This document shows positions 1-38,807 of a stretch of DNA of 39,563 nucleotides, piece after piece. Within the stretch, counting starts at the first letter, position 1; every line of letters starts with the position of its first letter. The stretch is taken from contig JADIIU010000114.1 in assembly GCA_027603945.1 (NCBI GenBank), positions 1 to 39,563 of the forward strand, read 5' to 3'. The stretch is from Terramyces sp. JEL0728. Its lineage: Eukaryota > Chytridiomycota > Chytridiomycetes > Rhizophydiales > Terramycetaceae. Under the pieces are notes generated by a model. The model saw nothing but the letters and a program-made list of their open reading frames with translations, did no database searches and had not been told where the DNA came from. Position numbers and translations under genes: made by a program.

Positions 1-1
1 T

Positions 2-5025: not shown

Positions 5026-6703
5026 ATGCATACTGCAATACTACTAAGTGCAGTAAATGCATTATTTACAGTACCTATAAAGAGACACCGGCGAATTGAA
5101 AAGAGGGCAATCTCATTCGATGCTCCAACACTAGAAAGTAATCTAACAAATAATTTCGACAACTTTTATACATGTACAGTTACTATTGGAGGTGGAAATA
5201 ACGTCCAAGTATTTCAAATGAATTTGGATACAGGGTCAGCAGATGTTTGGTTCCGTGGAAAGAATTGTGTAGATCCAACTGGATCCAGCGGATGTTTTGG
5301 CAAGGCAATCTCATTGAATGATCCATCAATCAAGAAATTTAATGTCAAACCAATCACGGCTAATTACGGGTCTGGACAAGTTGTTGTTGCTTTGTTTGAA
5401 GCGCCATTGTCAATCATAGGTGAAAACAACTCCAAATTCGGTGGAATTGGAACTAAAACTGCTACTGTTCCTTTTGGCGTTGCGTCATCTGTCAAAGGTG
5501 TACTTCCTGGTGACGGGTTGCTAGGAATGGCGTTCAACGGCATATCTGTCATATCTCCGGCAATTGGAGCATCAGCAAGCTTTTTTGATAGTTTGAAGCT
5601 TCCAAAATCCCAACAAGTATTTGCATTCTATTTAAACAACCTTGAAGATAAAGATGTTGGGGAAGTTGATTTTGGCGGCGTAGACAAAACAAAGTTCACT
5701 GGCGATGTGCATTGGGTTGATGTAATTAAAACCCCTGGTGATGGTGAATTTACTACTTGGAACTTTGATATCACCGAATGGTCTGTTTCTGTTAAAGGGG
5801 TAAAGCAGCTATCGAATGTACCAGTTGCAAGCTCCAACAATGTCTATGCAATGGCAGACACTGTAAGGACAATTCTAACTTTAGGGAACTACTAATTTGA
5901 TTTTACCGGATGATCTGGCACGGGCAGTTAACCAAGCTTTAGGCGGAACAGAAAGTACAAGTGCTCCAAATATGTTTGTAGTTAACTGTTCAAATGTTGA
6001 CAAGTTGCCGGATATAGTCTTTTCGCACAAGGGGGAAAATTTCCCAGTTCCTGCTAACATTTACCTGAACCCTCCTTTTGCTGATGGCCAATGCTTCACC
6101 AGAATTGTTGGAACACCAGTCTCTTCAGATGCACCAAATGCGTTATTATTTGGGGATCCATTTATTCGCTCTTTTTATACTATTTTTGATAATAGACAGA
6201 CAAATCCGAGACTTGGGTTTGCCAAGGCTGTCCATCCATCAGACAAGGACACAGTACCTGCTATTACTGTTGTTCCTACCACAACCACTGTTAAGCCTAC
6301 CACTACCACAACCACCACGACTACGACTACAACTACTACTGTCAAGCCTACCACTACCACTGTCAAGCCTACCACAACTACGACTACTACGACTACAACC
6401 ACCACGACTACTACTACGACTACTACTGCTGATCCAACAACCACTGAAGATCTTGCCAACTTTGCAGGTCCCGCAACAGCAGTCGTTCTCACAGCTGATG
6501 AAGAAATAACCACAGTTCAAGTAACAACTGAACCCACCGCTACCACCACTGAAGCAGCAGTCACTACTGAAGCCCCATACACTCCTGAAGCAGTATTTAC
6601 TACCGAAGCAACACCTTTTTCTACAACAAACACTCCAAAGATAGTAAGCTCTGCGAAAACATATGATCTAACTGCATTACTGTTAATACTACTGAATATA
6701 TAA
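5026..6703 (+). CDS. Divergent secreted aspartyl protease with a 22-nt intron in the second catalytic motif
   Basis: Read as two exons, 5026..5862 and 5885..6703, giving 551 residues. Unspliced, the frame closes just after MADTVRT; removing the GT...AG segment 5863..5884 (22 nt, with CTAAC near its end) gives ADTGTTNLILP, restoring the second catalytic DTG. The first catalytic motif is LDTGSADVWF. The protein has a signal peptide, a basic HRRIEKR processing site, a pepsin fold, a long Thr-rich stalk with VKPTTTT units and a short hydrophobic C-terminus. It is clearly more distant from the three upstream copies. The stop TAA at 6701-6703 lies inside AATAAA (6702..6707). A genuine frameshift is the alternative, but exact restoration of an invariant motif by a canonical intron makes splicing far more likely. 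Confidence 0.88.
6284..6432 (+). repeat. Thr-codon microsatellite-like repeat
   Basis: A run of ACN codons encodes VKPTTTT units and long poly-Thr within the protease stalk. Codons alternate (ACC, ACT, ACA, ACG), so the DNA is degenerate while the protein stays pure, which suggests selection on the poly-Thr product. Confidence 0.75.
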
Positions 6704-6881
6704 TAAAATTGAAATCTATTTACTGATACATAAAAGAATGAACATGCAAGTTCTTGAGTTGAAAATCAGACTGTTATGTCGAGCTATGAAAGTTTATGAA
6801 TTTTATTGGTTTGAAACCACTTTGATGAACCAAAATAATCACAATCTAAAATATTTTAGTGATTTTTTTTGTCCAAATTTA

Positions 6882-8829
6882 ATGGGGAAAAAAAGAAGAG
6901 TAGAAAACCAGGAAATAATTGATTCAAAGGACGAGCCACAAGAATTAGACGAGATCGATATATCAGAGCCAGAGCCAGAGCCAGAGCTAGAGCCAGAACG
7001 AGAACCAGAACCAGAACCAGAACCAACAGACGAAAAAGGAACGTTGGATTTCAAAGTTACTCACAACAAACCACTACCAATATCTTCCACTCAAGGTCTG
7101 CCGGAATGGCTAAAAACCCCAATTGAAATATCTCCGTTTTATGATCATACTTTTGACAATGCAATCGACAATCCAAAATGGAAAATATCTGCATTCTTGA
7201 AAAAACGATTACTAGAATTAGGGTATACAAATTGGTTCCCTGTTCAAGAACATTTGATTCCAAGATTATATATTTCAAGGTATAATCGACTGTCGTTTCC
7301 TGGCGATGTATGTGTATCTGCATCAACAGGGTCTGGTAATATATCTTAATTGTAGGTAAAACATTGGCGTATGCCGTGCCGATTATTGAAGCCTTATTAG
7401 ACAGAGTTGTGCCTAGGATTAGAGCGTTGATTGTGGTTCCAACAAGGGATTTGGCAGTTCAAGTCCGACAAACTTTTCAAGAATTGATCAAAGGATCTGA
7501 TTTAAAGATCGGGATGGTTATTGGATCTACATTATTGTCCACAGAGCAAACCAAGATTATGGACAAGAACAATGAATCTAAAATTGATATTCTAATTTCC
7601 ACACCAGGCCGGCTTATTGATCACTTGCAACAGACAAATGGATTTAATTTGAAGCACTTGAAATTCCTTGTTATGGACGTAAATATACTTTGATTTAGGA
7701 AGCAGACAGATTGTTGAACCAGCATTACCAAGGTTGGCTGGGCACAGTCTATGAACAATTTGAAAAGGCAAGATACATTTTGCCTTACCACATTGATTCA
7801 AGTAAAAGAAAAAATCATGTTCAGAAGCTCTTGTTTTCAGCGACACTTACACGAAACCCTGAAAAAATTGCTACTCTACAGCTAGTGAATCCAGTTTACA
7901 TTGCTGTGTCTGCTGATGATACTGAAGATGCTCGGTTTGTCATACCTCCATTCTTGACTGAACAAAGAATAGTTGTAGACCAGCAGGATAAAGCCCTGCT
8001 ACTTTTACACAAGCTGATCAATGAAAAGATGGATAAAGTACTTGTGTTTGTCAAATCAGTTGAATCAGCAAACAGATTATCTTTCCTTATCAACAAATCA
8101 AGCAAAGTCCATGGAACTAAAGTCAATACTAAAGCACTGTCATCAGAATTATCTCCTTCGATGCGCCAAAATATATTAAACGAATTCAAAAAAGGCAACC
8201 TTACTGGTTTGATATGTTCCGATGTGATGGCTCGAGGTATAGATCTCGGCGAAACTGTAAAAACTGTTATCAACTATGACATTCCAACCAACATCAATTC
8301 GTACATTCATCGTGTTGGTCGTACTGCTAGAGCCGGTAAAAAAGGGCTTGCGATTACTTTTCTCGAACCCAAGCAAGTCAAATGGTTCAAGGTTAATATG
8401 AAAGTCAGGGTAAAAAGGATGACTGTGATTGAAAAAGTTGTGGTGAAGGAGAAAGATTTTCAAGGGTTGGTTGGTATTTATCAGAAGGGACTTGCAGCTT
8501 TGGAAAAGGACGTTAAAGGATTGGGAGAAATAACTTCCCAAGGTGATAGTGAGACTTTGGATAGTTCCAGTAGCTCTGACAGTTCTGACAATTCTGACAG
8601 TTCGGACAGCTCTGATAGCTCTGATAGTGATAGTTCCAGTAGCTCAGACAATGATAGTTCTGATAACGATTCGCAAAGCTATAACAATACTAAAGATAAT
8701 GTTGACGATAGGGATAGCGATACTGATTCAGACCCTAGTGATTCTGAATCAAACGTAACTAACAATGAACAGGCAATCAATAATTACAGAAAAACAACAA
8801 ACTCATGGACAGATCCTGAATGGACCTAA
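6882..8829 (+). CDS. DBP6: DEAD-box RNA helicase, DDX51/Dbp6 type
   Basis: Three exons: 6882..7335, 7356..7678 and 7699..8829 (635 residues). Both introns are 20 nt and cut catalytic motifs: the first lies within ASTGSGKT (motif I), the second between the D and EAD of motif II. Other motifs are PTRDLA (Ia), STPGRL (Ib), FSATLTRNPEK (III) and HRVGRTARAG (VI). The RLLNQHYQGWL stretch after DEAD and the FPVQ start are typical of DDX51/Dbp6, a nucleolar helicase of 60S ribosome assembly. I choose the ATG at 6882 because the protein then begins with basic MGKKRR; upstream in-frame ATGs at 6738 and later give no family-like sequence. The N-terminus is Glu/Pro-rich and the C-terminus a long Ser/Asp tract. 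The stop overlaps AATAAA (8828..8833). Confidence 0.93.
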
Positions 8830-8838
8830 TAAATTTAT

Positions 8839-9048
8839 TTAAACACTATCCTCTTCTTCACTGACTTTTTTAAACTCTGGTTTTTGCTAAATTAACAACC
8901 CTTACCTTCAAGCTGACGTTGTACATATTCAACTGTCTAATATTTGACATTGCAGTATTTGGAAACATTGTGTATCCAAACACACCTAGAGGAGCCAAGT
9001 ACGGAACGAGTCTTCCAAGTTGACTATCATTAGCAATTCTTACTTCAT
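8839..9048 (-). CDS. Small protein, 56 residues, seen only after splicing two tiny introns
   Basis: On the minus strand, an ATG at 9048 is followed after only 5 coding bases by a 20-nt intron (9024..9043, containing GCTAATGATAG). Exon 8906..9023 follows, then a 19-nt intron (8887..8905, ending TTAATTTAG) and exon 8839..8886. The total is 171 bases, in frame, ending in TAA. The product begins MNQLGRLVPYLAPLGVFGYT and ends in a charged EFKKVSEEEDSV tail. I do not recognise it; the size and a hydrophobic stretch followed by a polar tail fit a small organelle-membrane subunit. Its stop lies inside AATAAA (8834..8839 on the complement), and it converges on the helicase gene with only 9 bp between stop codons. 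Two canonical introns of exactly the local length argue against chance. Confidence 0.65.
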
Positions 9049-9255
9049 GGCAAAAAGTTTAACGCGTAAATTATCATTTGACTATGAAAATATTTGGACA
9101 AATTGGCACTGAGAATACAGCGGGTGCAGAAAGCATTCGGAAATATATAATGTACTTGTTATCTATGGATGCTGTAGCTATTTACAATTTTATCAGTCAG
9201 TGTACATTTTCATGCATGTGTCATGTGTGAAAAACAGACGCGCCTCAATTTCTTT

Positions 9256-9438: not shown

Positions 9439-9445
9439 AAGTTTA

Positions 9446-10599
9446 TTATGCGTTTTCGTAGCGGTTTTTGCGGACTTGTACACTTTCTAATCCTTCACGG
9501 TTGCGTACTATAGCGGCATTGCCCAGCGCAGTCAATCGTTGTTTTCTTTGTACGTTATATTTTTCGTATTTGTTGTTGAGTTCGGCTTTTGTTGGGAGCT
9601 TAGGCACTGATTTATGTGGTTTATATCCATGGTTAAGCAATTGAACATCGTCTGGGCTGGTTGCCGCGAGTTCTGTTGACACTTGAATCTTTCTCTTCAA
9701 GTAGTCCAGTGTTTCGTTGCGGACTACTCCGTATACCGGCTCATGGACACCTATGGTTAGTTGCAATTACCCAACTTTTGCATAATCGATGAAGAATCGG
9801 TATCCCAAGTGCTCTTGAACCATGCGAACGATTCCAGTTCCAATCCATTATCTTTGGCAAATTTCATGCTTGGTAGAAAAGCTCCTCGTTGTTCATAGGC
9901 CAGATCAGAAGGTTTCTCGAGTGAAAGCTCTTTAGATTGTCTCCATAGTGTGATTAAATAACGATGCTCTTTTCTAGGATTTGACAGTGGTGGATGAGGA
10001 GGCACATAGTCGTGCACTACACTACCTGCAGTTTGTTCTTGTTAATCAAAAAATACCATTCTGTTCACCTAAAAAGTTTGAATAGCCGCCATTTAGAACA
10101 AGACGGTCTTTTACTTGCACATTCGTAACCAGCCAGTGGCACCATTCATCAATCGATTGACGTTCAGGATATTGATGATCCAAGTCAGTCATCATGATAG
10201 TAAACAATCCCGACTTGTTGATTGCCACCGTTGGCGCATTAACAGTAAATTTAGGTTGAATTGGATGCCCGTAACACCCATTCCACTTTGTATTCTCAAA
10301 TTGCACCTGTATCAAAAAGTAATTACTTCAAAAAATGAAATATCAGTTTGCGGTAAAGCGTCTTTAAAAATCCCATCTTTTTCTGCAAATTTCAGCGTTT
10401 TTGGAAGGACATGTCTCTTGAACAAATTTGCATGTAGTTTTTTGTGAATATCTTTAGTAAAATCTGGGTTAGTGGAGTATTCTTTGTGATTATTGATATC
10501 CGCTATTTCACTCTTTCTGCTTCCTAGTAGGGACTGTGCTTGTTTGAATGCCTGGTCTAATGGATTCGTCTTGGGTAATTTTAGTATCGTCCTTGACAT
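9446..10599 (-). CDS. MRPL35: Mitochondrial large ribosomal subunit protein mL38 (PEBP fold)
   Basis: Four exons on the minus strand: 10327..10599, 10057..10306, about 9771..10037 and 9446..9750 (364 residues). Introns are 10307..10326 (20 nt), 10038..10056 (19 nt) and 9751..9770 (20 nt, with ACTAACCATAG). For the middle one a 31-nt variant using the AG at 10026 is also in frame and differs by four residues; I prefer 19 nt by analogy. The central domain has the phosphatidylethanolamine-binding-protein signature TDLDHQYPER...CHWLVTN...DYVPPHPP, preceded by an N-terminal extension as in mL38. Its role is structural, in the central protuberance of the mitoribosome. The stop lies inside AATAAA (9442..9447, complement). 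Confidence 0.85.
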
Positions 10600-10713: not shown

Positions 10714-11841
10714 TTAAATATCGTCCTTTATTTCTTCAAATTTTCCAACTTCAAGGTCATCTAGAGTTGTATCGGATGAAAAAGATTCCAATCGCCGATA
10801 CTTGTTGTTGAAGCTAATCAAATAAGCCATCAGATGGAAATACACGATAATAGCAAAGCCTATAGAAGCCAAGAGCATGGAATATGATCCTGCATCAAAT
10901 TTAGAGTCCTTGAGTTTATAAATAGCGTCTGAGCTTCCACCCATGAAAAACATGCCTGAAGTAACCCATAGAGTATCAACCAGAACACGAGTATCAATAT
11001 TTCCATACAAGCTGAGCAATTTGATTGTCGAAGCACCAACAAGAGTCATACCAAACATGATGTGCAATACCAGAGCAAAAGAGGAATTCTGATCATGGAA
11101 AATCATTTGGATTCCTTCAACAAACAAAACTATATACGGGAAGGGATTAACAATGTTCTTGGATCTGTAAATCAACCCAAGCACGCCGCCAAAGAACCAA
11201 AATACACCACTCAGCGTGTGTTGATAGTCCCTGTGACTCCAATTTGTCCCCCACCGATGCGTAACTATAGTATTTAAAATACCGAAAAATAGTATTACTG
11301 CAATTAGGACATCATGCTGGTATTGGGTAAACATTCCTATAAATGCAACCGCGATGAATGCAAATCCCATCCCAAAATGTGCCATACAATTATTAACTTC
11401 ACTAGGTTGGCAGATGCCCAAACTAGCGGTTACTCCACTACCCATTTGTAATATAGGCATTATAACAAACAAAGCCAAGAGTAGATAGTGCGCCTTGCGA
11501 AGGAATTCGGATCTTGTAGTTTTAAAACATATCGTAAAAACAGTTAGAACGTATACAAGGTAGAATACGTATGGTTGAGAGTGTACATGAAAGGAGGACA
11601 GTCGGTATCCATATAATTTGTGCCCAAAAAAGTACGCAATGTGGAACAGCGCAAATCCAACGAATAGCAGATATAGATTTGGGTTTCTTTTTATAGTGTA
11701 GATGATTGATAATGGGAATAGGAATAGGAACGATGTCGCCATAAGCGTAACATGGATGACGAGTGTTGCAGATACTGGCGGCGTGATTAGCAGCGAAGGG
11801 TCCTGTTTGTCATAGTCAAAGTTGTGTAGGTGTCTCTTCAT
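10714..11841 (-). CDS. Ytp1-like multi-pass membrane protein
   Basis: A single exon on the minus strand gives 375 residues from the ATG at 11841. An in-frame ATG at 11928 would begin 8 bp from the upstream gene's stop and adds a non-conserved leader, so I prefer 11841. There are about ten hydrophobic helices. Landmarks fit the fungal Ytp1/DUF2427 family, related in layout to cytochrome b561 proteins: AHFGMGFAFIA, the QHTLSGVFWFFGGVLGL helix and a later LHIMFGMTLVGA helix with His residues. The C-terminal tail is acidic and cytosolic. Biochemical function is not established in the family. The MFSD5-like gene lies immediately upstream on the same strand, 95 bp away. Confidence 0.7.
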   Translation of the reverse strand: MKRHLHNFDYDKQDPSLLITPPVSATLVIHVTLMATSFLFLFPLSIIYTIKRNPNLYLLFVGFALFHIAYFFGHKLYGYRLSSFHVHSQPYVFYLVYVLTVFTICFKTTRSEFLRKAHYLLLALFVIMPILQMGSGVTASLGICQPSEVNNCMAHFGMGFAFIAVAFIGMFTQYQHDVLIAVILFFGILNTIVTHRWGTNWSHRDYQHTLSGVFWFFGGVLGLIYRSKNIVNPFPYIVLFVEGIQMIFHDQNSSFALVLHIMFGMTLVGASTIKLLSLYGNIDTRVLVDTLWVTSGMFFMGGSSDAIYKLKDSKFDAGSYSMLLASIGFAIIVYFHLMAYLISFNNKYRRLESFSSDTTLDDLEVGKFEEIKDDI

Positions 11842-11936
11842 TACTCGTCCTTCATTTTCTTTGTTTTTATCTGGATTTTTATTTATTTGTTGTGATAAAC
11901 AAATATAACACATCCAAACATGGATCAACTTGGAAA

Positions 11937-13331
11937 TTATTTATTTTTATCTTTTGCAGACACCTGTAATCTTAGCGACAGCAATAATCCCAAACCAGTC
12001 AACCCGCCGCAAACTAAAAATCGCGACTCTAACGACAGTGAATTTACAACCAGCAAAACTAAAACCACTGTCAGATTCAACGGTATCCTGAAAAAGTTCA
12101 TTACCGTAGCTCGCTGACCCTCCGGTATGATTCTACTTCTGAGACTTCCAATTGTAGGAAAGTAAAGCCCACAGCTAGCTTCAAACAGATTGAATGCGAG
12201 TACTGCGGATATCTCCGACTAGGTTAAATGTTTCTACTTTAAATACGATAGGGATTGTAAATGAAACGGTTGCTATGAGGAATACTACTACAGACAGGAA
12301 TTCAAACGAACTCTTATTTGTCGAATATTTGAATATTTGGGAGCCAATCATTACATGAACCATAAAAGTAGCGAATATCACGCCAAAAGGCAAGGCTGGC
12401 GATTCTGAATCAGTGAAATGTACCTGCTATTGACTCTAATACTGGGGACCATAGGAAGACAAAGGTGTACATTGCGCTTTCAAAACAGCACTGCATCACA
12501 CCAACTGACAGAATTCTTGGATTAGCCAAGATCGCGAACAAGTCCTGGCCATCCTTTTTCACTTTGGTTCCTTTCTTTGCTTCAACTTTTTTTTCTTTGC
12601 TGATTCCATAGTTTTCTCCCCAGAACAAAATGATAAACACAAATGAAATTACGACCAAGAAAGACGCAAAAAGGAAAGGAGATTTCAAGCCGTAGAAATC
12701 AACCAAGCCATTGGCAATTAAACCTGAAATGATTGCTGAAAACCCATTCAAAAAGGTCCCCCATGAAAAAGTGTCATCCAACAACCTCTCCTCAAATTTC
12801 CGTTCATGGTGAGCTGCAATCATCCAAGATTCAAATACAGAGTGTAATAGGGAAGTAGATATACCACCAAATACCCTTCCAACTATCATAATGGGATAGG
12901 ATGTTTGTATTTTGGTCATGCAACAAATCCCATAAAAAACGCAATATCCCAGGCAGCCTACCCTTCGTCCGCTGTATTAACAATAAATACTATTTATCTG
13001 AAAGTGATCCGAAATAAGTTCCAAATATCGCTGATCCTGCAAACCCTGTAACAGCCAGCACTGCAATTTGATTCAAATCGTATCCAAATGACTTGTACAA
13101 CGCGTATTGATACGACCTAAATCAAACATCACATACCCTTTCATTAGCACTTCAAACCTTGCAACCACTAGAATTAATTTTACTTACGTCCGACATGTAG
13201 ATCAAAATCATTATTGAAAAATACTGGATTTGAAACGATCGAAAATTCTTGTGATGAGTATACTGTTCGTTTGACGATATACTGAATACAACCAGTGTCA
13301 GCACCGATACTGAAAATATTGTCCAGTACAT
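11937..13331 (-). CDS. MFSD5: MFSD5-like (molybdate-anion transporter family) MFS protein with seven exons
   Basis: Minus-strand exons: 13188..13331, 13158..13167 (10 nt), 13137 (1 nt), 12991..13116, 12424..12971, 12238..12404 and 11937..12218, giving 425 residues. The six introns are 20, 20, 20, 19, 19 and 19 nt. The spliced product shows the family landmarks in order: SDWLQGSYQYALYKSFGY, GSLSDKYGRRVGCLGY, GRVFGGISTSLLHSVFESW, an FSWGTF segment, LWSPVLES, and FEASCGLYFPTIGSLRSRII. Human MFSD5 is of similar length. I use the ATG at 13331 because it places the first helix as in the family and lies clear of the upstream stop; an ATG at 13382 is possible. The role is a plasma- or endomembrane transporter, with molybdate known for some relatives. 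Confidence 0.85.
13117..13157 (-). other. Two 20-nt introns separated by a single-nucleotide exon
   Basis: Within the MFSD5-like gene (minus strand), intron 13138..13157 begins GTTTGAAG and ends GCTAATGAAAG. A lone G follows at 13137, then intron 13117..13136, which begins GTATGTG and ends TTGATTTAG. Removing all 41 bases as one intron puts the rest of the gene out of frame; keeping the single G restores DWLQGSYQYALY, which aligns without a gap to the conserved DWLQ-x-x-Y-x-Y-x-L-Y motif of the family. A 34-nt intron starting at a GTGC (13117..13150) is also in frame but inserts two residues. Confidence 0.7.
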
Positions 13332-13392
13332 TACTTGAAAATTGCAAAGTATCAAGAAAACTTTTTTTATTATAGAGCCCATCTCCACTTTA

Positions 13393-15119
13393 TCAGGCAA
13401 AGCATACCAAAAGAGCTAGCACAATCAACATGCGGTTTATAAGCGGTGGTAAACCATCCGCGCCAGAAATCGTAGTTGAAACAGAAGTTGAAAGTGCAAT
13501 TGTGTACCCAGTCGAGAGCGCATTTCCAGCTGCAGCGGTAGAATTATAACCCATAAAATCATTTTGAGGGCTAGTATCGTATCCACAACCAGAACAGTCT
13601 GAATTGTCACAATAATCGCAAGTACTATTTCCATCATCCGTGCCATTAAAGACATACGTGTAATTGTATTCAATTAGATAACTATTTGTCAGATTTAACG
13701 GTTCGCAGACATCTGTTGCGTTGATGTAGGATAGTGGGATGTAGAATGGTGGAGTGCTGAAATCGTAACTGATTTCACTCATAACGACGGATATATTGAC
13801 GTACAGCTGATCAGCGGGGTCTTTGCATATACAAAGTGAGCTGTTTGCGTTGGGTAGAGGAGAGCATCCATAGCTGTTTGTTGATGCTGTGGTAGTTGCA
13901 GCAGCGGACGACGTTGGACAAGAAGGACTAGCACAATAAGAAGAGCTTTGATCTTGGATTACTCCAGTACATATCGGAATGAACTGATCCGGGTAATTTG
14001 AGTTGGACCCAGTTGAACAATTGGAGACAAATTGAGCATAATAATCGGCATACCAACTCGCATTTTGTAGAGTATAAATATAATTTGTAATATTCAGCAG
14101 TTGGCTAAAGCTCACCAAAGTATTATTGGTCAACGAGGTGTCATTTGCGAGTACTGCAGGCGGAGATACCCAAAATGATAATTCTTCAAAAAACACGTAT
14201 GAAACTTCTGGATGATCGCAAAAATGAATATCTTGATTGATAAGCAAGTGCAAATTTGCCATGTATGCCATTTGGAAATATTGTGCCAGTAAAGCGCTGT
14301 ATACCTGAATAGCCGTGGTAGCGCCTCTGATCATATTTGATGAAGTTTGGAGTATATCATGCGGGTAACTGCCGATTTGTGTCAGGTATGTCGCGTATTC
14401 TAGGTCAAAAGCCGCGATTGTCAGGGACAGATTAAATGCCCTCAAGGCGGATTGCAGCTATGTGAGGCAATAATTACTTTGATAACGTTTGGAAGACGGT
14501 CAAGCGTTAGATATTGATCAAACGAGGTGGGCATGCTATTGATGCTTTGGTCAACAATTCTATCAAGCAAGGTAGAGTTGTAGACCGATATTGAGTTTTG
14601 CACATGCTGTAAAAAGTGAAAAGAGTACCATGCCATATTAAAGCAGGCATAATTTCCGTTGAATACGAGAATATTCGCATTTTGATTGCCGGCAGTGTCG
14701 GAAACGTTGAACAAGTTAAAGTCGATATCCAGCTGAATCTGCTGTAAAGTATCCACGTACTTTTGATACCCAATGATTTCATTAACGATATTTGTAGATC
14801 CATAAAAGAAGATGTTTGTGATTGTAGCGGTAATACAAGTAGAAGTAACCGCGTATATTGAGGTCAAATCGTCAGCAATCGAAACAACTGTAACCAAAGA
14901 CCCATTTTCCCCTGACGCATTAAATCCTACTCGTCTTGCTACATTGTATTTTTGAATTGTAATTTCAGTGGTGCTGAAGAGCAATTCAATGTCTGCTTGA
15001 CTCTGACAAATTGCATTGTAAGGGAGTATATCACTAGCAATTTCAGAGATGATATCTGATGATTGCTGCAGAGTATACTGGGCTGCAACTAACCCAAATA
15101 CCCCAAAAAGCAACTTCAT
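13393..15119 (-). CDS. Secreted Cys- and Asn-rich GPI-type protein, unknown family (paralogue A)
   Basis: Two exons on the minus strand, 14478..15119 and 13393..14457, joined by removing a 20-nt intron (14458..14477), give 568 residues. I start at the ATG at 15119 because MKLLFGVFGLVAAQ is a clean signal peptide; an ATG six codons earlier exists. The ectodomain has many N-glycosylation sequons, an LPYNAICQSQADIELLFSTT segment near the N-terminus, then a Ser/Thr/Ala linker and a Cys-rich part with CICKDPADQ and CDYCDNSDCSGCG. A hydrophobic tail (MLIVLALLVCFA) suggests GPI anchoring. The next gene (15241..18153) shares the CQSQ segment and overall plan. The stop TGA is 10 bp or more before the MFSD5 gene. 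I do not recognise the family. Confidence 0.8.
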
Positions 15120-15240
15120 GACAAAGTTACACGTCATTTTGGCTTTAGATATACACCATCGTTCAATTCAAATATTATTGAACGAGCACAACATAACCGC
15201 TAAAATTCATAAAACAGGGTTTATTCACAAAAATAACGCT

Positions 15241-29970: not shown

Positions 29971-31147
29971 ATGACACTCGTAGACGACTATGTAGCACTC
30001 GTAATGAGCTATGCATACCAATTCCCTTCAATGGCAAAGTATTTCTTGCTAATATAGAAAAATATGGGACTTTAACATGACTGTAATGCAAGAAGTCAAC
30101 AAACTCTCTCCCAGAGTGAAGCAGAACATGCTCAAAGCACTGGGGCTAATCAGAGATTTGAGCTTGAAATCAATAGAGCAAATGCGTAAAGTTTATCCCT
30201 CAGTAATGAAAATTGGAACCAGACGAATTGAAGAATGGAAGCAACCTCATAGCATAATTTTACATCCTTTAGCTTACTTTGTTGCCTTTTGGTTCCCTGT
30301 TCGAGATCAGTGGGAATCTGTGGATAACGGCGACAGAATCATTTATGTTGGAAGTATCGCGTCGCTAATGTAGACCAACAGGTGTATGGGCTTGGCACCC
30401 TTTCCTTTGTCGCTGTTGTTTATTTCAAGACCGGCAAACTTGTAAGAGTGGTTACAGAAGGTTTCCATTTCACGATACCAATATGGAAGCACCTTATAGA
30501 ATATTTGGGTGCAATAGATGCAACTAGAGCCAACGCAATAGATCAAGCCTGCGAATCCGGCCATACACTGCTAATTTATCCTGGAGGAATCAAGGAGTTC
30601 TTTAAAAAAGCAGATGCACAGAAATATGACTTGGACTTTAAAGAAAAGCATTTGTTAACAGTTACTCGTTTACTACAAACTTGTGGTACAAAATATTAAT
30701 TTAGAATACACCGCCATTCCATTTGGTAATATTGGCGCGTCAGATATGGTCAAGGTGCTGTTTAATGTGCCAGTCAACCCACAAGATATGCAGAAAACTG
30801 TCCCGGTCGTGATGCCAGTTTCATACCAGAGGCAATACATCCACTTTGGCAGTCCAATAAGGGCAAAAGACTTGTCCCGACCGGTATACATGCCTTTGAT
30901 CGTTGCGTGCACAAGCACAAGAGACGACGCTCTTGATCATCGAAAACGTGAAGGCGATTCGCGATATTTATTACAAACTATCCACAAAGGAGTTGTGTTT
31001 GTCCAAAGCTACTTTTTAAGAGACAATGGGATCATCATGCAAACCAGCAGAGCTAGCCAAAGAGTTGTTAAACAGACCGTTGTTACTGGTGCAAAGCAGG
31101 TCCTAGAATATTTCCAAGACGGGCCTAAAATCGAACAAATTTCATAA
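29971..31147 (+). CDS. LPLAT-fold acyltransferase-like protein (TMEM68/DGAT type) lacking the HX4D pair
   Basis: Four exons: 29971..30038, 30058..30353, 30374..30685 and 30705..31147 (372 residues). Introns are 19, 20 and 19 nt. The first exon (MTLVDDYVALVMSYAYQFPS) was recognised only through the 19-nt intron 30039..30057 (ending GCTAATATAG) that joins it in phase. The body fits diacylglycerol-type acyltransferases: IIYVGNQQVYGLGTL (motif I position), an FHFTIPIWKHLIEYLGAI segment, LLIYPGGIKEFF (motif III), and LLQTCEYTAIPFGNIGASDMV (motif IV). Motif I normally reads N-H-x4-D; here His is Gln and Asp is Gly, so the usual catalytic pair is absent. The role may be lipid binding or regulation rather than acyl transfer. 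It is divergent from the epoxide hydrolase (205 bp spacer). Confidence 0.8.
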
Positions 31148-31265: not shown

Positions 31266-33103
31266 ATGGAAAAAAAAATAAAGCTGGAAAATGAAGCAGT
31301 CAAAGTAAAGGAAATTGCAACACTGTCCGAAGAGTCTGTTGGAATAACCAGCTATATCAATCAGCAACCAGCAGGATTAGCTGGGATCATAAAGCACAGA
31401 TTTGATGATTTTCATGTTCACGAAATTGACCCTAACGACAATATCGTCTATCTTACTAGTACTAAAGTGCCAAAGACAGAGTCTAGTGAATTGCCAGAAA
31501 AAGAGCGAATAGAACTGTTGTCCTCCCTGCTGGACGATTCGTTATTCTCTGGCAAATTTGAAGAATTTCTCCATTCCAGCGTAATTAAAAGTATTTCGTC
31601 GCCAGAAATCAGTGACAAGGATAAACGGACTCTTATTCATCAAAAGACTCGGGAACTGTTTTCCAATATTGATTCAAAGACGGACGGAAATACCATCAAT
31701 TTCACTTTTAAAAAGAAAGGAAAGAATGAAAGAATTAATTGGAAAGCATTGGGCGGAGAATACCTTCATTTCACTCTGTATAAAGAAAATAGAGATACAA
31801 TGGTACTTGGTACTAACAAAAGGATGCAATCAACATCATATCAAAGTTGGTGCGAGCAGACAGCAAGTCGTTTACTTATCCTGGCACAAAGGATAAACGC
31901 GCAATAACAACGCAAAAGGTTTCAGTTAAAGGAATCACTGCAGAGCGTTTAAGCGGAATCAACGATAAATTAAACAACATCAAGTTGGGAAATTTCTCTT
32001 ACCACCCTGAAAATTTGCAATTGGGCGATGCAAACGGGAATCATTTCACAATTGGTTGGTATTATTAATGTTAGCTATCAGAAATGTTGATATTTTGAGC
32101 CAAGAAAATATTGACCTTGCAATAGAGTCACTAGGAAAACACGGATTTATCAACTACTTTGGGATGCAAAGGTTTGGAACCCGAAAAATTCCGACCTATC
32201 ATGTTGGAATCGCAATGCTGGGTGAAAAGTGGGAAAAGGCCACAGAGTTGATACTGGCTGGCGATGGCGAAGACGATAAAGAAGAAATTAAACAAGCTAG
32301 AAAGGTGTATACCGAAGAAAAAGATGCTAGGAAGGCAGCAGAATTAATGCCTAGATTCTGTATCGCTGAAAAAGCCATTTTGACTTCATTTTCAAAACAA
32401 AAAGGCAAATCAAATCATTTCCAAGCAATCCAAGCTATTCAAAAGAATATGCGCACAATGTATGTTCACGCGTATCAATCATACGTCTGGAATCACGTAG
32501 CGTCAAAGCGATTCGAATTGTACGGTTTAAATGTCATTAAAGGCGATTTAGTGATGGAGAAAACAAGGGAATCTAAAGTGGATGATAATGGTAAACGGTC
32601 AAGAAGAAATGTTAAAGTTACGGTTGTTGAAGACCCATCAAAACACTCTATCTACGATGTCGTACTGCCATTGCCTGGCCATTCTGTTATTTATCCTGCA
32701 ACCATGGTATCTGATTATGAATCCATAATGAAAAAAGACGGGTTCAGTCCACACGAAATGGCTCGCAAAATCAAGTAACAGTCATTAACTCAGCGAAATC
32801 AATCTCCCAGGTGACTACAGACATTTCGTCTCTTTACCAAAGAACGTATCTGGCAAAATAGTAAAATACAGCGACTCTAACGATCTAAATTCCTTGATTG
32901 AAAGTGATATCAACAAAATCCAAAAGGATTTCCAACAAGACCCAGACGGCGAATCTGTCGCTTACATAGTCGAGTTTAGTCTTGGTACATCACAGTATGC
33001 CACAATGGCTTTACGAGAGCTTTTGAAAGCTGAGACTGGTGCTGGATATCAAGCTGTCAAATCGCAAGATCAAAGGAAAAGAAATATTGAACAGGTTGAA
33101 TAA
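31266..33103 (+). CDS. PUS7: tRNA/U2 snRNA pseudouridine synthase Pus7 (TruD family)
   Basis: Four exons: 31266..31802, 31823..32054, 32075..32774 and 32794..33103 (592 residues). Introns are 20, 20, 20-minus-1 (19) nt; the first contains the textbook branch site TACTAAC. Splicing gives YKENRDTMDAINIISKLVRA and then YPGTKDKRAIT, where the Asp near residue 203 is the TruD-family nucleophile. Later junctions give HFTIAIRNVDILSQ and INEINLPGDYRHF. NYFGMQRFGT (motif III) is intact. In yeast Pus7 modifies U2 snRNA, tRNAs and 5S rRNA; U2 pseudouridylation near the branch-site-recognition region is notable given the extreme introns here. The stop lies inside AATAAA (33099..33104). Confidence 0.94.
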
Positions 33104-33154
33104 ACTGCTCCATTATATTGGGCACAAACGATTTTGATACGAGATATTATTTAT

Positions 33155-35030
33155 TTAAATGAATAATACAATAAGAAAAGAGAGCGAGAGCGAGATCGAC
33201 GATGCTGAACTGAGAATTGGCTGAGAAGAATCGACTGGCTGCTTTTGATTTGAGTTTGCAGCGTTTGCCAAATAACCAAACTTTGGACCAAAGATTTTAC
33301 CCTGTGGTTTGGATAACTCACTTGGGGGAACGTATTGGTCAGATTTTGGTAAATCGATGTTTGATGATACTCGCGGTTCAGGTGAATTGTTGTTTGGAGT
33401 GTATTGTGAAGGCTGAGTTGGAGTAGTATCTGTGGTTGTTGCCATAGAAGTAACAACAGGGATCTCACTTGCTGCAGTTGAAGTTGTAAGAGATTGAGTG
33501 GTGGAGGTTTGTGTTCCTTGAGTGGTTGATTGAGTAGTCGTTCGGGTAGTTGATTGAGTAGTCGCTCCGGTAGTTGCTCCAGTAGTTGATTGAGTAGTCG
33601 CTCTGGTAGTTGATCGAGTAGCTGTAATTCCTGCCAAAGTAGTCTGAATTGTAGCTACTGGTAAAGTAGTTGTTGGGTTAACTTTAATGTTGTCAACAGT
33701 AGTTGTTGCAAGTGGGGATTTAGGTTTTTGGCAGAATGTATCAAGAGTGAGCTTTCCAGTGTTGAAAATATCAAATGAATCATCAAACGGTTTGAACACT
33801 TTGATTACTGAATCTCCGTGGACCTTGAACGACAAATTAGTTTGGCTGATCAACGCAACTCCAAAGTTTCCATTTGGACAAGTATTAAACTTTCCAGTAT
33901 CAAACTCCAGCCCTAGTGACGTGTCAACTGGTAAAGATGCATCCAGCGTGAATATTTTCAATACTTCAAGGTTCATCTGGATAGATGGAATCAAGTGAGC
34001 GCTGACGGATACTTGGATATCCTTGGAAACTGTCAATGGATGTTCCTTGAACTTTGGAGTCTGTGTAAATGTTGGTTTTTGATGGGCAACAGCAGTGAAA
34101 CCAAAGTCATAGTTGAACTCGAACCCATAAACGAAATCGATATTTTCAGTGACACTATAAGATACTCCAGCGTCGAATGCAATGGCAGGACCAAAGTTAA
34201 ACAACCCTTTGACTGCAACTGGATCCAATGATTTGGTAAACAAGTTTACTTGCTTCAAGAAATTATTATCAGCTGCCAGAACTCGTGCATCCAAATCCAT
34301 GGTAGCAAACATGTTTCCATTGATGGTGAATTTGTAGTCTTTCAATGACAGACGAGTTCCGGAAGCAGTAATTTCAAAGTTTACATTTCCATCTACAAAG
34401 CAGTTGGTGCAAGATAGCTGAGCTTGATCGTTTCCGAATATTTTAATGTCTGGATTAACAGCTTTTCCATCCGCAAAGTTGATTGCAATTGGAAGATTCT
34501 TTAAAGTAGTGCTTCTTTTGTTTCCCGCCTGTTCAACGTGCGCAATGTTTAAATCATATTCATCGATAACATTGTGCAGCTCCGCTGGTGTAAAATTGAC
34601 AGAGATTTGAGAACCATTCAAAGTAAGTTTTCCCACTTGGTAAGCAGTGGTTTCATCCAAATCATGGCATTGGACTTCGTGATTAATTAGAAAGTGTAGG
34701 TTATCAACGGTGTTCCATGTGGTAATTGCCTGCTCTGCACTTGCAGAATCATTAAACTGTAGTTTAATAATGTCGTTTTGGCAAGTGATCTGAATACCCT
34801 TAGATTAGCGAAATAGTTACAGGAAAGTTACCCAGATTTACAGTTGGAAAAGTTGGGGTTATTTGCATCCCAGCAACAACGATACTGTTGTCAGGCTTTT
34901 CTAATTCGTATGACGCTTGGACTCTTGGTAGTGGATGATAACCATCTCTGGCAACTGGGACTGTTGACAGGTAGTTTGTGGTTTGAGCAGCAGCAGCAAA
35001 TACTAGGCAAGATACGTATGCAAACTTCAT
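33155..35030 (-). CDS. Secreted GPI-type protein with a large beta-rich ectodomain, unknown
   Basis: Two exons on the minus strand, 34821..35030 and 33155..34798, with a 22-nt intron (34799..34820, GCTAATCTAAG end), give 617 residues. The signal peptide (MKFAYVSCLVFAAAA) is followed by about 360 residues of ectodomain with alternating hydrophobic strands, paired Cys residues (ITCQND, VQCHDL, LSCTNCFVDG) and NVNFEITASG/FTINGNMFATMDLD segments. The general look recalls the fungal secreted DUF7029/DUF7223 proteins, but I cannot confirm this. A Thr/Ser stalk of TTRATTQSTTG repeats, a Pro/Asn/Ser segment and a hydrophobic tail (ISLSLSFLIVLFI) complete it. A TATA box lies about 35 bp upstream. Its stop overlaps AATAAA by one base and is about 50 bp from the convergent PUS7 stop. 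Confidence 0.8.
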
Positions 35031-35060
35031 TCTATTTAATTGATTGCTTGTGCTACCAAC

Positions 35061-35068
35061 TATTTATA
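35061..35068 (-). promoter_or_regulatory. TATA box of gene 33155..35030
   Basis: TATAAATA on the minus strand, in a GAGGTATAAATAGTTGG context, lies 31-38 bp before the ATG at 35030. The leader ends in TTAAATAGAATG, similar in its last bases (AGA before ATG) to the leaders of other secreted genes. Confidence 0.55.
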
Positions 35069-35621: not shown

Positions 35622-38600
35622 TCAGCGACGACCACCTTTTGGACCTCGTCTGAATTTAGGGGTAGCCATTGGTCTATTCATATTAGGAGGAAGGTTTTGC
35701 GAAGGTTGCGAGTTGCCAGCACCGAATTGGAAGCTTTGGGGAGCAGAAGCTCCAAAATTGAATGATGGTGCTCCTGTTGGAGCTTGAAAGTTGAAACCAG
35801 CAGATTGATTCGATTGCCCAAACGTAGGCGGATTTGTTGTAGGCTGGCCAAACGTAGCAGTTGACTGGCCAAATGTAGGAGCAGGGTTATTACCAAATGC
35901 AGGGGCAGGGTTAGTGGTATTTCCAGGCTGTCCAAAGTTATTATTCTGGCCAAAACCAGTCTGACCAGGCTGGCTTGGCGCACCAAAACCAGCAGCAGGT
36001 TGAGTACCAAATGTATTTGGTTGTGGTTGAGCGCTATTACTTCCAAAAGTTGTATTTGCACCGCCAAATGTAGAGTTGGACGTTCCGAAAGTGTTGGTCT
36101 GTCCAAAAGTATTGGTATTGCCAGAAGTATTCGTATTTGTCTGTCCAAATGCATTATTACCACCAAAAGAAGGCGTTGTACTCGTCTGACCAAATGCGTT
36201 GGCTGGTGCGTTTGCTTGTCCAAATGCAGGAGCAGGAGCAGGAGTAGTTGCAGTCTGGCCAAAAGCAGGAGGCTTTGCTGTATTTGCGCCAAAAGTAGTG
36301 GTGTTGCTATTTTGACCAAAGCTAGTATTACTTTGTCCAAAAGAAGGAGCGTTTTGACCAAAACTAGTATTGCCCTGTCCGAATGATGGTGCAGTGGTGT
36401 TGCTTTGCCCGAACGTCGGAGCAGCCGGCTGACCAAAAGATGGCGTGCTGGTTGTTGTTTCTGCTGGCTTTCCAAAGGTAGGTGCTGAATTCGGTGCAGG
36501 TGGTTGGCCAAAGGAAAACGTAGCAGGTGGGTTCGCCGTATTACTTGCGTTAGTTTGACCAAAGGATGGAGTGGTTGACAGGGTGTTTTGACCAAAAGAA
36601 GGAACTGTTGTATTAGTAGAACCTGTTCCTTCTGCTGGTTTAGTATCTGCTGGTTTACCAAATGTAAATGTAGGCGCTTTATCCTTCTGCTCTGCTGGGT
36701 TTCCAAATGAAAATGATGGTGCCGGGGTGGTTTCTGTTGGCTTTCCAAGCGAAAAAGTTGGAGCACTAGTATTTGATGTGCCAGTTTCAGTCTTTTCACC
36801 TGGCTTACCAAATGAAAACGTTGGCGCAGTAGAAGGTGCAGCTGTTTCCGGTTTATTTTCAGCAGGCTTTCCAAATGAAAACATTGGAACACTAGGAGCG
36901 TCTTTTTTCTCTTCAGCTGGTTTCCCAAACGAGAAAGACGGTGTAATTGCAGATGGGGCCTCTTTTGTTTCTACCGGTTTACCAAAGGAAAATGCTGGTG
37001 CTGCTGTGGTATCTGCAGGTTTGCCAAATGTAAATGTCGGTGCATCAGGCTTATCTGATCCTTTTGTTTCTGCTGGCTTGCCAAATGTAAATGTCGGGAT
37101 TGATGGTTTCAGAGTGCTTTCTCCAGAATCCTTTTTCTCTTCTGGTTTTCCAAAAGTAAAAGTTTTTAAAGAATCATTCTTTACATCTGCCAATGGTGGG
37201 ACACTCGTGTTTTCAGTAGGTTTTCCAAATGAAAAGGCAGGTGGTGCAGTAATATCTGTTTTTTCCGTTTTAGGCAAGGTAAACAATGGTGTCTTTTCCA
37301 CTTTCTTATTTTCAACTTTAGATGGCGTATCTTGCCCAAAAGTAAACAGCTGATCTGGCTTTGCATCAGTGGTATCTTTTTTTGCTACTGGAGCTGTGAA
37401 AAGGGCAGGGTTTTCTTCAGACGTTTTTGCTGCTACTACAATTTCCTTTTGTCCATCCTTATTTTCTGGAGCTGCAAAGTAGACTTTTTTAACTGTTATT
37501 TCTGGAACTGCAAATTCATCCTTTTTGGCAGGAGATTCTTGCATTAAATAATCAATTACCTTTCTTTAATCTGTTGATTGTAATTTCATCCAATTCATCT
37601 TCATCCAGTTCCTTCCTCAATCTTTTTTTAGTTCCATCCTCAGTTGACGATATTGGCAGTCTAACTGGTGCTTGATCTTGGCTCAATTCCGTGCTTTTCG
37701 TAATATCAAATCCAAGATTCTGAATTAGCGAGTGTATACCTTGAAAAACTCTATTCTCTTTTTCACAATCGTTTCTTCTTCTTGTTTAGTCTTTACTTTT
37801 TTCTTTAAGCGAACATTGTCGCCTAATTGCCAAGAGAATCCATCTTCAGGTAAAAGATTTTCAGGAAATTCATCCTCTTCAAACTTTCTTTTTGATTTGT
37901 TGGATTTTTCAACCCGACTTTCAGTTGGTTTTTCAGCTTGTTTATCTGTTGTTTTAACTTTGATTTCATTTTGATTCTGGTTTGCATCACCAAGCGATTC
38001 AAATAGCCCAACTCTGCTTCTTACCGATGTAACGCCTTTGCGAACCTGACGTTAATATTCAATTACGCTGCCTGGTGTCTTTTTTGTTGTTCTTCCAGCA
38101 GTTTTCTTTTTTCTAATTGGAGTTGCAGAGGACTTTTTTCTTTCCGGTTTCACTTCAGAGCTAATGTCTGCAATTTCACCAGAATCTAGTTCCAATTCAT
38201 CCTTGTTTGTTACTCTAACCAATGGACTTGGTGTAACAGGAGCATAGCTTTTTACTTCCATTGGCCGTGGAGTATCAACATGTACTTTGACAGGAGTCTC
38301 TACTTGAACTCTTGGTAGCGGTGATTTGAATTCTTTGACTGCGTGATGTTGTTGGGTTTGAATGACTGGCACGCTTGGGTTGAAAACAGATTTCCGTTCT
38401 GGCTTGCTAAATTCAGCTGATTTCTTTGGTCTGAAAAGATTATCCTGTACGTTTATAGGGCTAAAGCTTGAATCTTTGAATGGTGAAATGACTCCCAATC
38501 CAGGGGTGTTTCCAGCGATTTTTCGTGGAGACTCGAATTTAAAACTTTTCACTGCCATTAAAATCAGTTACCATTATCTGAACCTGATTGTGACACTAAT

Positions 38601-38807
38601 ACCAGCTGCTCTCCCTTTAATCCAGAGTTGAAATTAGTCCTTGGTGATTGATAAACTCTTCTTGGTGGTTGCATCGTCGCAGCTCTTCTCCTTGCTTGTC
38701 TATATTAGCGCAGATTACTCTTGCTTTTGCTCCACTAGATTCTGTTGGTATCTGTAATATATAAATAGAGACGCTACTATTACTCCAAGAGTAATGTAAA
38801 CGATCAT
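35622..38807 (-). CDS. FG-repeat nucleoporin with an N-terminal transmembrane helix (POM121-like architecture)
   Basis: Six exons on the minus strand: 38719..38807, 38572..38699, 38067..38551, 37740..38045, 37560..37719 and 35622..37537 (1027 residues). Introns are 19, 20, 21, 20 and 22 nt. The first two exons give a membrane segment (VYITLGVIVASLFIYY) followed by a basic RRRAATMQPPRRVYQSPR stretch. Then come SPRKIAGNTPGLG, two lysine-rich clusters resembling nuclear localisation signals, and about 600 residues of FG repeats: FSFGKP/FTFGKP units first, then SFGQ/FGQ/FGN units. It ends in a basic KFRRGPKGGRR. The role is a nuclear-pore FG Nup on the pore-membrane or nuclear side. An ATG at 38674 or 38557 could start a shorter form without the helix. 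The stop is followed at once by AATAAA. Confidence 0.82.

Follow-up and report, generated by a model that had tools for sequence, protein, structure and literature searches.

Predicted introns of 19-22 nt as a genome-wide feature of the chytrid fungus Terramyces sp. JEL0728

The 39,563-nt stretch of contig JADIIU010000114.1 of the chytrid Terramyces sp. JEL0728 analysed here (the window) raises the question of whether the genes of a fungus can be interrupted by introns that are nearly all 19-22 nt long and, if so, what kind of introns these are and how they could be recognized.

Short introns in the window

We catalogued 36 introns in 14 genes of the window (13 of 19 nt, 18 of 20 nt, 2 of 21 nt and 3 of 22 nt). 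Half of them (18/36) were obtained in gene finder runs with a flat length prior, i.e. free of any length preference, 15 only with a learnt length prior, and 3 (13138-13157, 29475-29495 and 29651-29670) were placed by hand. A sequence-only reading had claimed 35 introns in 13 genes (12, 18, 2 and 3 of 19, 20, 21 and 22 nt, respectively), which equals our independent list minus a doubtful 19-mer with a weak motif at the end of a TMEM70-family gene (21516-21534, minus strand, learnt prior). Left out of the list were flat-prior predictions of 83 nt (14441-14523), 229 nt (31846-32074), 265 nt (31810-32074), 52 nt (34790-34841), 89 nt (182-270) and 74 nt (28985-29058), and learnt-prior predictions of 20 nt (4833-4852 and 13310-13329) and 56 nt (222-277).

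The aspartyl protease gene (5026-6703, plus strand) contains one 22-nt intron (5863-5884, flat prior), and its spliced product matches Asp (PF00026) over residues 2-315/315 with 173.4 bits. In the DEAD helicase gene (6882-8829, plus strand) two 20-nt introns, both found with the flat prior, lie within Walker A (7336-7355) and at the DEAD motif (7679-7698); the DEAD domain scores 128 bits (2-167/167) when spliced, versus 76.7 bits for the unspliced piece. The PEBP-domain gene (9446-10599, minus strand; PBP, PF01161, 50.8 bits after splicing) carries flat-prior introns of 20 nt (9751-9770, also in the genome-wide pattern list), 19 nt (10038-10056) and 20 nt (10307-10326), and the tyrosinase gene (21978-23620, minus strand; Tyrosinase, 69 bits) one of 20 nt (23345-23364, flat prior). 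Three 19-nt introns, all from the learnt prior, were predicted in the ERG3-like hydroxylase gene (20399-21280, minus strand; FA_hydroxylase, 88.6 bits, 3-131/132): 20622-20640, which has no YTRAY match, 20845-20863 and 21153-21171. In the alpha/beta hydrolase gene (28773-29765, minus strand), 20-nt introns at 29039-29058 (no YTRAY match) and 29388-29407 come from the learnt prior, while the hand-placed 21-nt intron 29475-29495 restores frame and domain and the hand-placed 20-nt intron 29651-29670 (no YTRAY match) restores HGFP; the spliced protein matches Abhydrolase_1 with 125.2 bits (2-243/245). The restoration of motifs claimed earlier was reproduced throughout: ASTGSGKT and MDEAD in the helicase, ADTGTT in the protease, HGFP and HDWGG in the hydrolase, HRYEHH in the ERG3-like hydroxylase and DTMDAINIISK in PUS7 are all present once the introns are removed.

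The remaining genes outside the transporter discussed below are less well characterized or were predicted in more than one form. In a small gene (8839-9048, minus strand), introns of 19 nt (8887-8905) and 20 nt (9024-9043) rest on the learnt prior and the motif only, and a Pfam search with the 56-aa product gave no match. The gene at 13393-15119 (minus strand) has a 20-nt intron without a YTRAY match (14458-14477), found with flat and learnt priors, in place of which another flat run gave 83 nt. The gene at 29971-31147 (plus strand), for which Pfam, NCBIfam and PDB searches gave no match, has flat-prior introns of 19 nt (30039-30057), 20 nt (30354-30373) and 19 nt (30686-30704). For the gene at 33155-35030 (minus strand), the optional 31-nt variant proposed earlier (34790-34820) did appear in two flat-prior runs; two other runs gave the 22-nt intron that we list (34799-34820), and one flat run gave 52 nt. 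The FG-repeat protein gene (35622-38807, minus strand) contains introns of 22 nt (37538-37559, flat prior), 20 nt (37720-37739) and 21 nt (38046-38066), the latter two in two flat-prior runs each, as well as 20 nt (38552-38571) and 19 nt (38700-38718) from the learnt prior.

Two genes could be compared with deposited Terramyces models. Removal of three flat-prior introns from the PUS7 gene (31266-33103, plus strand), i.e. 31803-31822 (20 nt), 32055-32074 (20 nt) and 32775-32793 (19 nt), yields a protein 100% identical to the one deposited for Terramyces sp. JEL0728 over 592 aa. At the first and third junctions the gap count within 8 aa is unchanged in all 59 aligned homologues; at the second it is changed in 15/59, which counts against that junction. 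The deposited model of the MFS_5 transporter (11937-13382, minus strand), in turn, is wrong at the short introns: the residues that it loses at the 19-nt introns 12219-12237 and 12405-12423 (both learnt prior) are present in 6/6 and 5/6 of the homologues shown, respectively. Some public Terramyces proteins are therefore likely to be truncated or fused. Across a third 19-nt intron of this gene (12972-12990, learnt prior) the homologue alignment is free of gaps, and a 20-nt intron was predicted at 13168-13187 (learnt prior). Between them, comparison with homologues predicts an exon of a single nucleotide (13137), flanked on its 5' side by the hand-placed 20-nt intron 13138-13157 and on its 3' side by the 20-nt intron 13117-13136 (learnt prior). 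This reading yields DWLQGSYQYALYK, the counterpart in Globomyces P0136 being DWLQGSYLYALYK; a single intron of 49 nt (which loses LQG) or of 34 nt (which adds two residues) would also keep the frame. On this comparison, the transporter gene probably does contain a one-nucleotide exon.

Among further intron-containing genes with domain matches, a kinase gene is interrupted by 10 introns (19-23 nt), of which seven fall within the domain, and its product matches Pkinase over 1-263/263 (258.7 bits); an acyl-CoA synthetase and a SAPS protein score 282.8 and 262.8 bits, respectively.

The length class against chance and genome-wide

Frame breaks of this kind could also be assembly or sequencing errors, or frameshifts of pseudogenes, bridged by conveniently chosen short GT-AG segments. 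A length-free gene finder will indeed bridge frame breaks with any signal it is allowed: when introns of 10-300 nt were permitted under the flat prior in 200 kb of contig C1, fake boundary pairs gave 32-42 "introns". The lengths tell the two apart, with 19/43 GT-AG introns at 19-22 nt, as against 1/40 for GA-AG, 1/35 for GT-AC, 1/32 for CT-AC, 3/36 for AC-CT, 4/33 for TG-GA, 0/33 for GG-AG, 2/39 for CA-AG and 1/42 for GT-CA. The same peak emerges without gene models. On both strands of 321,824 bases, GTA...YTRAY...HAG occurs at 340 places with a length of 19-22 nt, versus 74.6 per four lengths elsewhere (93, 136, 76 and 35 at 19, 20, 21 and 22 nt; 11 at 18 and 20 at 23 nt). A strict form of the motif gave 55 matches at 19-22 nt, which fell to 2 and 0 with two altered donors, to 5 and 3 with two altered acceptors and to 15 with an altered branch; as the last value exceeds its own background of 2.5, either some true introns deviate more from the branch motif or the motif itself is less well defined than assumed. 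Across the whole genome, a motif of open length has 51 matches, 46 of them with a length of 20-22 nt. Errors do not produce a peak that requires GT, branch motif and AG jointly, nor does an error account fit the restoration of whole conserved domains; as a general explanation it is already contradicted by the motif spectrum and the genome-wide matches, and we consider it very improbable.

The narrow 19-22 nt class observed in the sequence-only reading is confirmed and extends beyond the window: two other contigs (240 kb) show the same peak, as does the pattern search of the whole genome. The predicted introns of Terramyces sp. JEL0728 thus form, genome-wide, a narrow length class below ~25 nt, as in other genomes of uniformly ultra-short introns.

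A true short class might be accompanied by a class of longer introns missed by the methods. In the length-free run 61/156 introns fall outside 19-22 nt, among them 13 of 41-100 nt and 38 that exceed 100 nt, and the genome-wide motif has 17 matches at 47-77 nt versus 11 for the reversed pattern. Against this stand the spectrum of a similar pattern, which stays level between 23 and 397 nt (145-171 per 25 lengths in 279,563 bases), and the fake-pair runs, in which off-peak introns were as many (29-41) as with GT-AG (24). Both suggest that most off-peak length-free introns are noise; a second class is in our view unlikely, though rare longer introns may occur in this organism. Coding exons are not clearly depleted in intron look-alikes: those of 19, 20 and 22 nt number 9 versus 14.0 expected (SD 3.6; 22/200 shuffles as low) and those of 24-60 nt 151 versus 175.9 (6/200 shuffles as low), while an earlier version, compromised by true introns located at the ends of ORFs, gave more look-alikes than expected (46 vs 35.2).

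Splicing signals, spliceosome parts and a proposed mechanism

A typical intron begins with GTAAT(T), followed by about 2 unconstrained bases, NNYTRAY (which places the branch A at position 14 or 15), 2-3 bases and YAG. In a run of the gene finder without any knowledge of the branch motif, the branch A was at position 14-15 in 48/67 introns of 18-24 nt and 5-6 nt before the end in 49/67; in the next run, with the motif learnt, the corresponding values were 72/95 and 73/95, with no YTRA at the right place in 11/95 length-free introns. Of 312 introns, 143 have T at donor position +5 and just 70 have G (37 and 9, respectively, in the 67-intron run).

These features are those of U2-type introns: GT-AG ends in coding genes, conserved frames restored on removal, and a YTRAY motif at near-fixed distance that is complementary to U2, the snRNA of which is present (140.2 bits, carrying GTAGTA). 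U12-type introns have a TCCTTAAC-like branch box and an RTATCCTT donor; this class was rejected on the GTAAT(T) donor and the loose YTRAY branch across the 312 introns. Segments so short, so exactly cut and so narrow in length might alternatively be removed from DNA, like the internal eliminated sequences (IESs) of ciliates, some of which are as short as these. Ciliate IESs end in TA, while the Terramyces segments have GT and AG ends and a branch motif complementary to U2, and no fungus is known to us to carry an additional nuclear genome in edited form; we give this explanation almost no credence. The best reading is that these are 19-22 nt spliceosomal introns of a fungal nuclear genome, in support of the sequence-only interpretation.

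Other parts of the machinery were found as well. A U1-C zinc finger scores 52.4 bits, with a model that also matched in one control genome, that of E. coli, and a U2AF65-like gene, interrupted by stops, scores 251.7 bits, below the family cut-off of 310.3 bits. Searches of the draft assembly for U1 and U6 RNAs found neither, which, together with the scarcity of G at +5, would fit a machinery different in kind, in which an altered U1 or U6 RNA reads donors lacking the +5 G by other pairing. Against such a change, the U6 ACAGA box is reported as identical in all species examined in the survey of 230 Saccharomycotina and 10 outgroups (PMC10581693), and U6 may simply be absent from the draft assembly or be itself split by an intron, as described there for fission yeast (PMC10581693). 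We therefore consider an altered U1 or U6 rather improbable.

Very probably, then, these are ordinary U2-type spliceosomal introns that have shrunk genome-wide to little beyond their own signals, with the distance between the 5' splice site and the branch adenosine as the predicted ruler. The 5' site would be bound by U1 and then U6, GUAGUA of U2 would pair with the branch motif, and a lariat with a loop no larger than 14-15 nt and a tail of 5-6 nt would form before the exons are joined. Given how loose the motifs are on their own, much of the specificity would come from the fixed length. Recognition would take place across the intron, and even the predicted one-nucleotide exon would therefore be usable, its neighbours being removed one after another. 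In the human B complex, ~52 nt are estimated to be necessary between the 5' site and the branch site, according to PMC6692369. Such a geometry would not fit these introns, which would require early assembly to proceed in a rearranged, shortened or sequential form. Whether the spliceosome is truly length-gated, i.e. accepts only introns with the branch A ~14-15 nt from the 5' end, uses length as a signal, has dropped the extended B-complex geometry and tolerates exons down to 1 nt, we judge to be an even bet.

Relation to known systems and implications

In the literature consulted, uniformly tiny introns were documented in ciliates (PMC9505925, PMC5014332) and, outside these, in the relic nuclei of algae and in one group of rhizarian parasites (PMC10245619). 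Those of Stentor coeruleus (15-16 nt) are similar in their near-single length, fixed A (position 10 of 15), 5-nt tail and AT-richness, and in the retention of snRNAs and many spliceosomal proteins, as far as the account in PMC9505925 goes. By the same account, Stentor lacks a strong branch consensus and only 18.14% of its genes have any intron, whereas Terramyces has introns of 19-22 nt with A at 14-15, a clear YTRAY and 319 introns in 131 predicted genes. Chlorarachniophyte nucleomorph introns (18-21 nt) have a nearly equal length range, but are described as >800 introns in ~300 genes of a relic nucleus (PMC10245619), unlike the 15-Mb fungal genome of Terramyces. The introns of mikrocytids (16-17 nt) are likewise many and narrow in range, but mikrocytids are characterized in the same source as intracellular parasites with highly reduced spliceosomes (PMC10245619), while Terramyces keeps at least U2AF65-like and U1-C genes. 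Nearer to fungi, the introns of the microsporidian Encephalitozoon cuniculi (22-76 nt) are called among the smallest described, yet they are few (37) and of wide lengths (PMC3629993), in contrast to the narrow class of 12,000-17,000 extrapolated for Terramyces. Paramecium also has a genome-wide ultra-short class, although its introns, given as ~25 nt in PMC5014332, are longer and those of a ciliate. The suggestion that no fungal parallel is known held up, in that our literature searches yielded no report of another fungus whose introns are so uniformly tiny.

A length-gated spliceosome, if true, would be the first case in fungi or their animal relatives. It would operate in a genome rich in introns that still has U2AF, U1-C and U2, and would therefore have arisen without the spliceosomal losses found in reduced parasites. 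A fungus is far nearer to the yeast and human spliceosomes with solved structures than are ciliates, rhizarian parasites or relic algal nuclei. The JEL strain number suggests that Terramyces is held in a culture collection, and such a fungus would make both the handling of a 14-nt lariat loop by a spliceosome and the possible role of intron length as a signal directly testable.

Predicted introns of the window and the proteins they restore

The genome of the chytrid Terramyces (order Rhizophydiales) comprises 15.0 Mb in 231 contigs, one of which, C114, is the window. We predicted 36 introns in 14 genes of this contig (13 of 19 nt, 18 of 20 nt, 2 of 21 nt and 3 of 22 nt), and the sequence-only reading, which had placed 12, 18, 2 and 3 introns of these lengths in 13 genes, is matched exactly once one doubtful 19-mer is set aside. 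Eighteen of the 36 were found in gene-finder runs without any preferred intron length, 15 exclusively in runs with lengths learnt from earlier introns, and 3 were placed by hand, while nine further gene-finder calls in the window were left out of the set. The introns are inferred from DNA; base-by-base reading covered ~2% of one genome, and the remainder was analyzed by pattern only.

Removal of the predicted introns yields window proteins with conserved domains that are whole or nearly so (Asp, 173.4 bits; Abhydrolase_1, 125.2; FA_hydroxylase, 88.6; PBP, 50.8; Tyrosinase, 69; TruD, 264.1). The spliced DEAD domain scores 128 bits (positions 2-167 of 167), whereas the highest-scoring segment before splicing reaches 76.7 bits. 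On other contigs the domain test took in four of nine genes: a protein kinase whose gene is interrupted ten times by introns of 19-23 nt, including seven within the domain (Pkinase 1-263 of 263, 258.7 bits), an acyl-CoA synthetase (282.8 bits), a SAPS protein (262.8 bits) and an ABC transporter (112.6 bits). PUS7, after removal of three predicted introns (20, 20 and 19 nt), matches a deposited Terramyces sp. JEL0728 protein at every one of 592 aa, the next-closest sequences being those of two Boothiomyces strains (87 and 84%). In an alignment of 60 of the 120 listed PUS7 proteins, the Terramyces protein included, the gap count within eight residues is unchanged at two of the three junctions in all 59 homologues and is altered at the middle junction in 15 of 59.

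Positions 1-6703 of the window hold tandem aspartyl protease genes with Thr/Ala-rich tails (one cut at the left end, then 1077-2594, 3088-4836 and 5026-6703), and an intron was kept only in the last of them; a 20-nt call at 4833-4852 was dropped, as it overlaps a stop codon. A predicted intronless protein of 970 aa, consisting mostly of Ala/Thr/Val-rich repeats (15241-18153, minus strand), has no Pfam match, and an intronless gene at 26704-28695 (plus strand) encodes an MHYT domain (57.1 bits), the name of which derives from bacterial signalling proteins. For the gene at 29971-31147, searches of Pfam, NCBIfam and PDB returned no match.

The length peak in gene models and in pattern counts

A gene finder with a flat length prior of 10-300 nt and GT and AG as its sole signals, applied to 200 kb of contig C1, placed 19 of 43 introns at 19-22 nt. 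The same program run with eight fake boundary pairs, i.e. combinations of end dinucleotides other than GT-AG, reported 32-42 "introns" per pair, with 0-4 at 19-22 nt. The signals for a later run were learnt from the 18-24 nt introns of the run before it, with the length prior still flat. This later run placed 156 introns in 96 genes, 95 of them 19-22 nt long (14, 45, 22 and 14, respectively); the remaining ones comprised 3 of 14 nt, 2 of 23 nt, 1 of 24 nt, 4 of 28-37 nt, 13 of 41-100 nt and 38 longer ones. The run before had also predicted three 14-nt introns: for that in the acyl-CoA synthetase a 23-nt reading agrees better with the homologue, for a second a 20-nt reading is available, and the third is a candidate at most. 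With a learnt length prior, which biases the figure, 312 of 322 introns fell at 19-22 nt (64, 150, 69 and 29).

The peak is also found without gene models. Both strands of 321,824 bases were searched for the simple pattern GTA ... YTRAY ... HAG, in which the branch A is placed 4-7 nt from the end. The counts are 93, 136, 76 and 35 at lengths of 19, 20, 21 and 22 nt, and 11 and 20 at 18 and 23 nt, respectively, against a background of 74.6 per four lengths elsewhere in the range 13-60 nt. A stricter form gave 55 matches versus 4.0 in the background. Changing the donor reduced these to 2 and 0 (two controls; background 7.1 and 3.4) and changing the acceptor to 5 and 3 (two controls; 1.7 and 2.6); a changed branch left 15 versus 2.5, and these 15 may be real introns in which the branch site is looser. 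Counts in 279,563 bases, obtained with the donor made somewhat stricter, stay level at 145-171 per 25 lengths between 23 and 397 nt.

In the whole genome, the pattern GTAATT N{0,30} CTAAC NN TAG, which permits 16-46 nt, has 51 matches, of which 28, 12 and 6 are 20, 21 and 22 nt long and the other five 16, 17, 40, 44 and 45 nt; when reversed, the pattern matches five times. At 47-77 nt the forward and reversed patterns have 17 and 11 matches, respectively. A genome total of ~12,000-17,000 such introns would follow by extrapolation from either the 265 surplus places in 321,824 bases or the 312 introns in 279,563 bases.

A putative one-base exon and the deposited gene models

The MFS_5 transporter gene (11937-13382, minus strand) has six introns in its best reading (20, 20, 20, 19, 19 and 19 nt), and a single G is predicted as an exon between the introns 13117-13136 and 13138-13157. 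This reading yields DWLQGSYQYALYK, where the Globomyces counterpart has DWLQGSYLYALYK. The frame is also kept by a single intron at this site of either 49 nt, at the cost of LQG, or 34 nt, with two residues added (DWLQGLKSYQYALYK); both agree less well with the homologue, and the gene likely contains the one-base exon. Our first model scores 250.8 bits against MFS_5 (profile 51-331) and the model with the one-base exon 277.6 bits (10-331). This exon alone does not account for the gain, because an intron call at 13310-13329 was also dropped between the two models. As a class, tandem introns separated by an exon of zero or one base show no excess (2 and 2, versus a mean of 0.86 per gap). In gene models on C1, paired introns of 20 or 21 nt lie back to back with a zero exon at 92337-92376 and 126215-126256; these could be introns of 40 and 42 nt, introns removed in two steps, or wrong calls.

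Deposited gene models were compared for the transporter and PUS7. The deposited transporter protein begins at residue 139, so that the first 138 residues are absent, misses three residues at one 19-nt intron and another three at a second, and is joined to a YTP1-like neighbour (the two together at 10714-13382, minus strand). The missing residues are present in 5/6 and 6/6 of the other homologues shown, and by this sequence comparison the deposited model is wrong at these introns. The deposited PUS7 model agrees with our spliced version; therefore the annotation pipeline had already placed such introns, and the trait may be known to the annotators of the Terramyces genome.

Intron anatomy, splicing machinery and a proposed length ruler

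In 312 introns the donor has A at +3 in 276, A at +4 in 178 and T at +6 in 188. At +5, 143 carry T and just 70 carry G (9/67 in the first set), a minority of G that is unlike most fungi; T precedes the final AG in 220 of the 312. Among 67 introns of 18-24 nt, taken from a run without any branch motif, 48 have a YTRAN-like A at position 14-15, 49 have it 5-6 nt before the end, and 6 lack one; in the 95 introns of the following run the counts are 72, 73 and 11. An intron of 20 nt can thus be described as a six-base 5' site and a seven-base branch motif, each followed by two free bases, and a final YAG. On retention, 222/319 introns would by computation introduce an in-frame stop and 248/319 would shift the frame.

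As for the machinery, we found a U2 snRNA carrying GTAGTA and a U1-C zinc finger, the model of which also matched a single control genome out of 14, that of E. coli. A U2AF65-like gene scored 251.7 bits, below the cut-off of 310.3, its match being interrupted by stops, as introns would cause. Rfam searches, which do not imply absence, returned no U1 snRNA, and the same holds for the RED_N domain, for which there was no match. For U6, Rfam reported just two 27-bit matches below the cut-off, in two near-identical stretches, which we regard as false. These 3.1-kb stretches (L029 on contig C199 and L030 on C111) share 98.9% identity across 3,106 aligned positions and could be a recent duplication or two haplotypes. 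We also scanned the genome with CTGCGCAAGGATGACAC, ACAGAGAWGATYAGCA and CCCCTGCRYAAGGATGA, which we take to be U6 consensus patterns. Nothing matched the first with fewer than three mismatches. The second had no exact match; its three one-mismatch places were rejected as they sit in open frames (177 of 231, 230 of 231 and 261 bases), and 46 places with two mismatches are candidates at most. The sole exact match of the third was rejected likewise, the frame being open across all 311 bases fetched. The U1 and U6 RNA negatives are weak, because the fission yeast U6, split by an intron, is missed by a similar search, according to the available text of PMC10581693.

The available text of the sources gives intron lengths of 15-16 nt in Stentor (PMC9505925), 16-17 nt in mikrocytids and 18-21 nt in chlorarachniophyte nucleomorphs (both PMC10245619), ~25 nt in Paramecium (PMC5014332) and 22-76 nt in E. 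cuniculi (PMC3629993), compared with 19-22 nt in Terramyces; a survey of 644 fungal genomes describes 63 bp as a relatively short mean, again in its available text (PMC8476143). No fungal introns of this kind are described among the matches listed in a literature search mostly without subscription papers, and the available text of the chytrid genome papers examined gives no intron lengths.

The short introns of Terramyces are likely U2-type and recognised across the intron. The ruler would be the distance from the 5' site to the branch, with a predicted lariat loop of 14-15 nt. That a fungal spliceosome is gated by length, requiring the branch A ~14-15 nt from the 5' end, has given up the extended B-complex geometry and permits exons as small as one nucleotide, we consider an even chance, slightly lowered from our earlier estimate because the 49- and 34-nt single introns also keep the frame. 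The crude pattern counts (340 at four lengths with ~75 expected; by arithmetic, the background over 48 lengths would be ~900) suggest that length adds specificity, the motifs being loose; a direct test showed no clear depletion of look-alike introns within exons, and no effect confined to these lengths. In the human B complex, at least ~52 nt are estimated between the 5' site and the branch site, with helices 15 nm apart (available text of PMC6692369). A complex of the human type would not fit these introns, and therefore early spliceosome assembly in Terramyces would need to differ.
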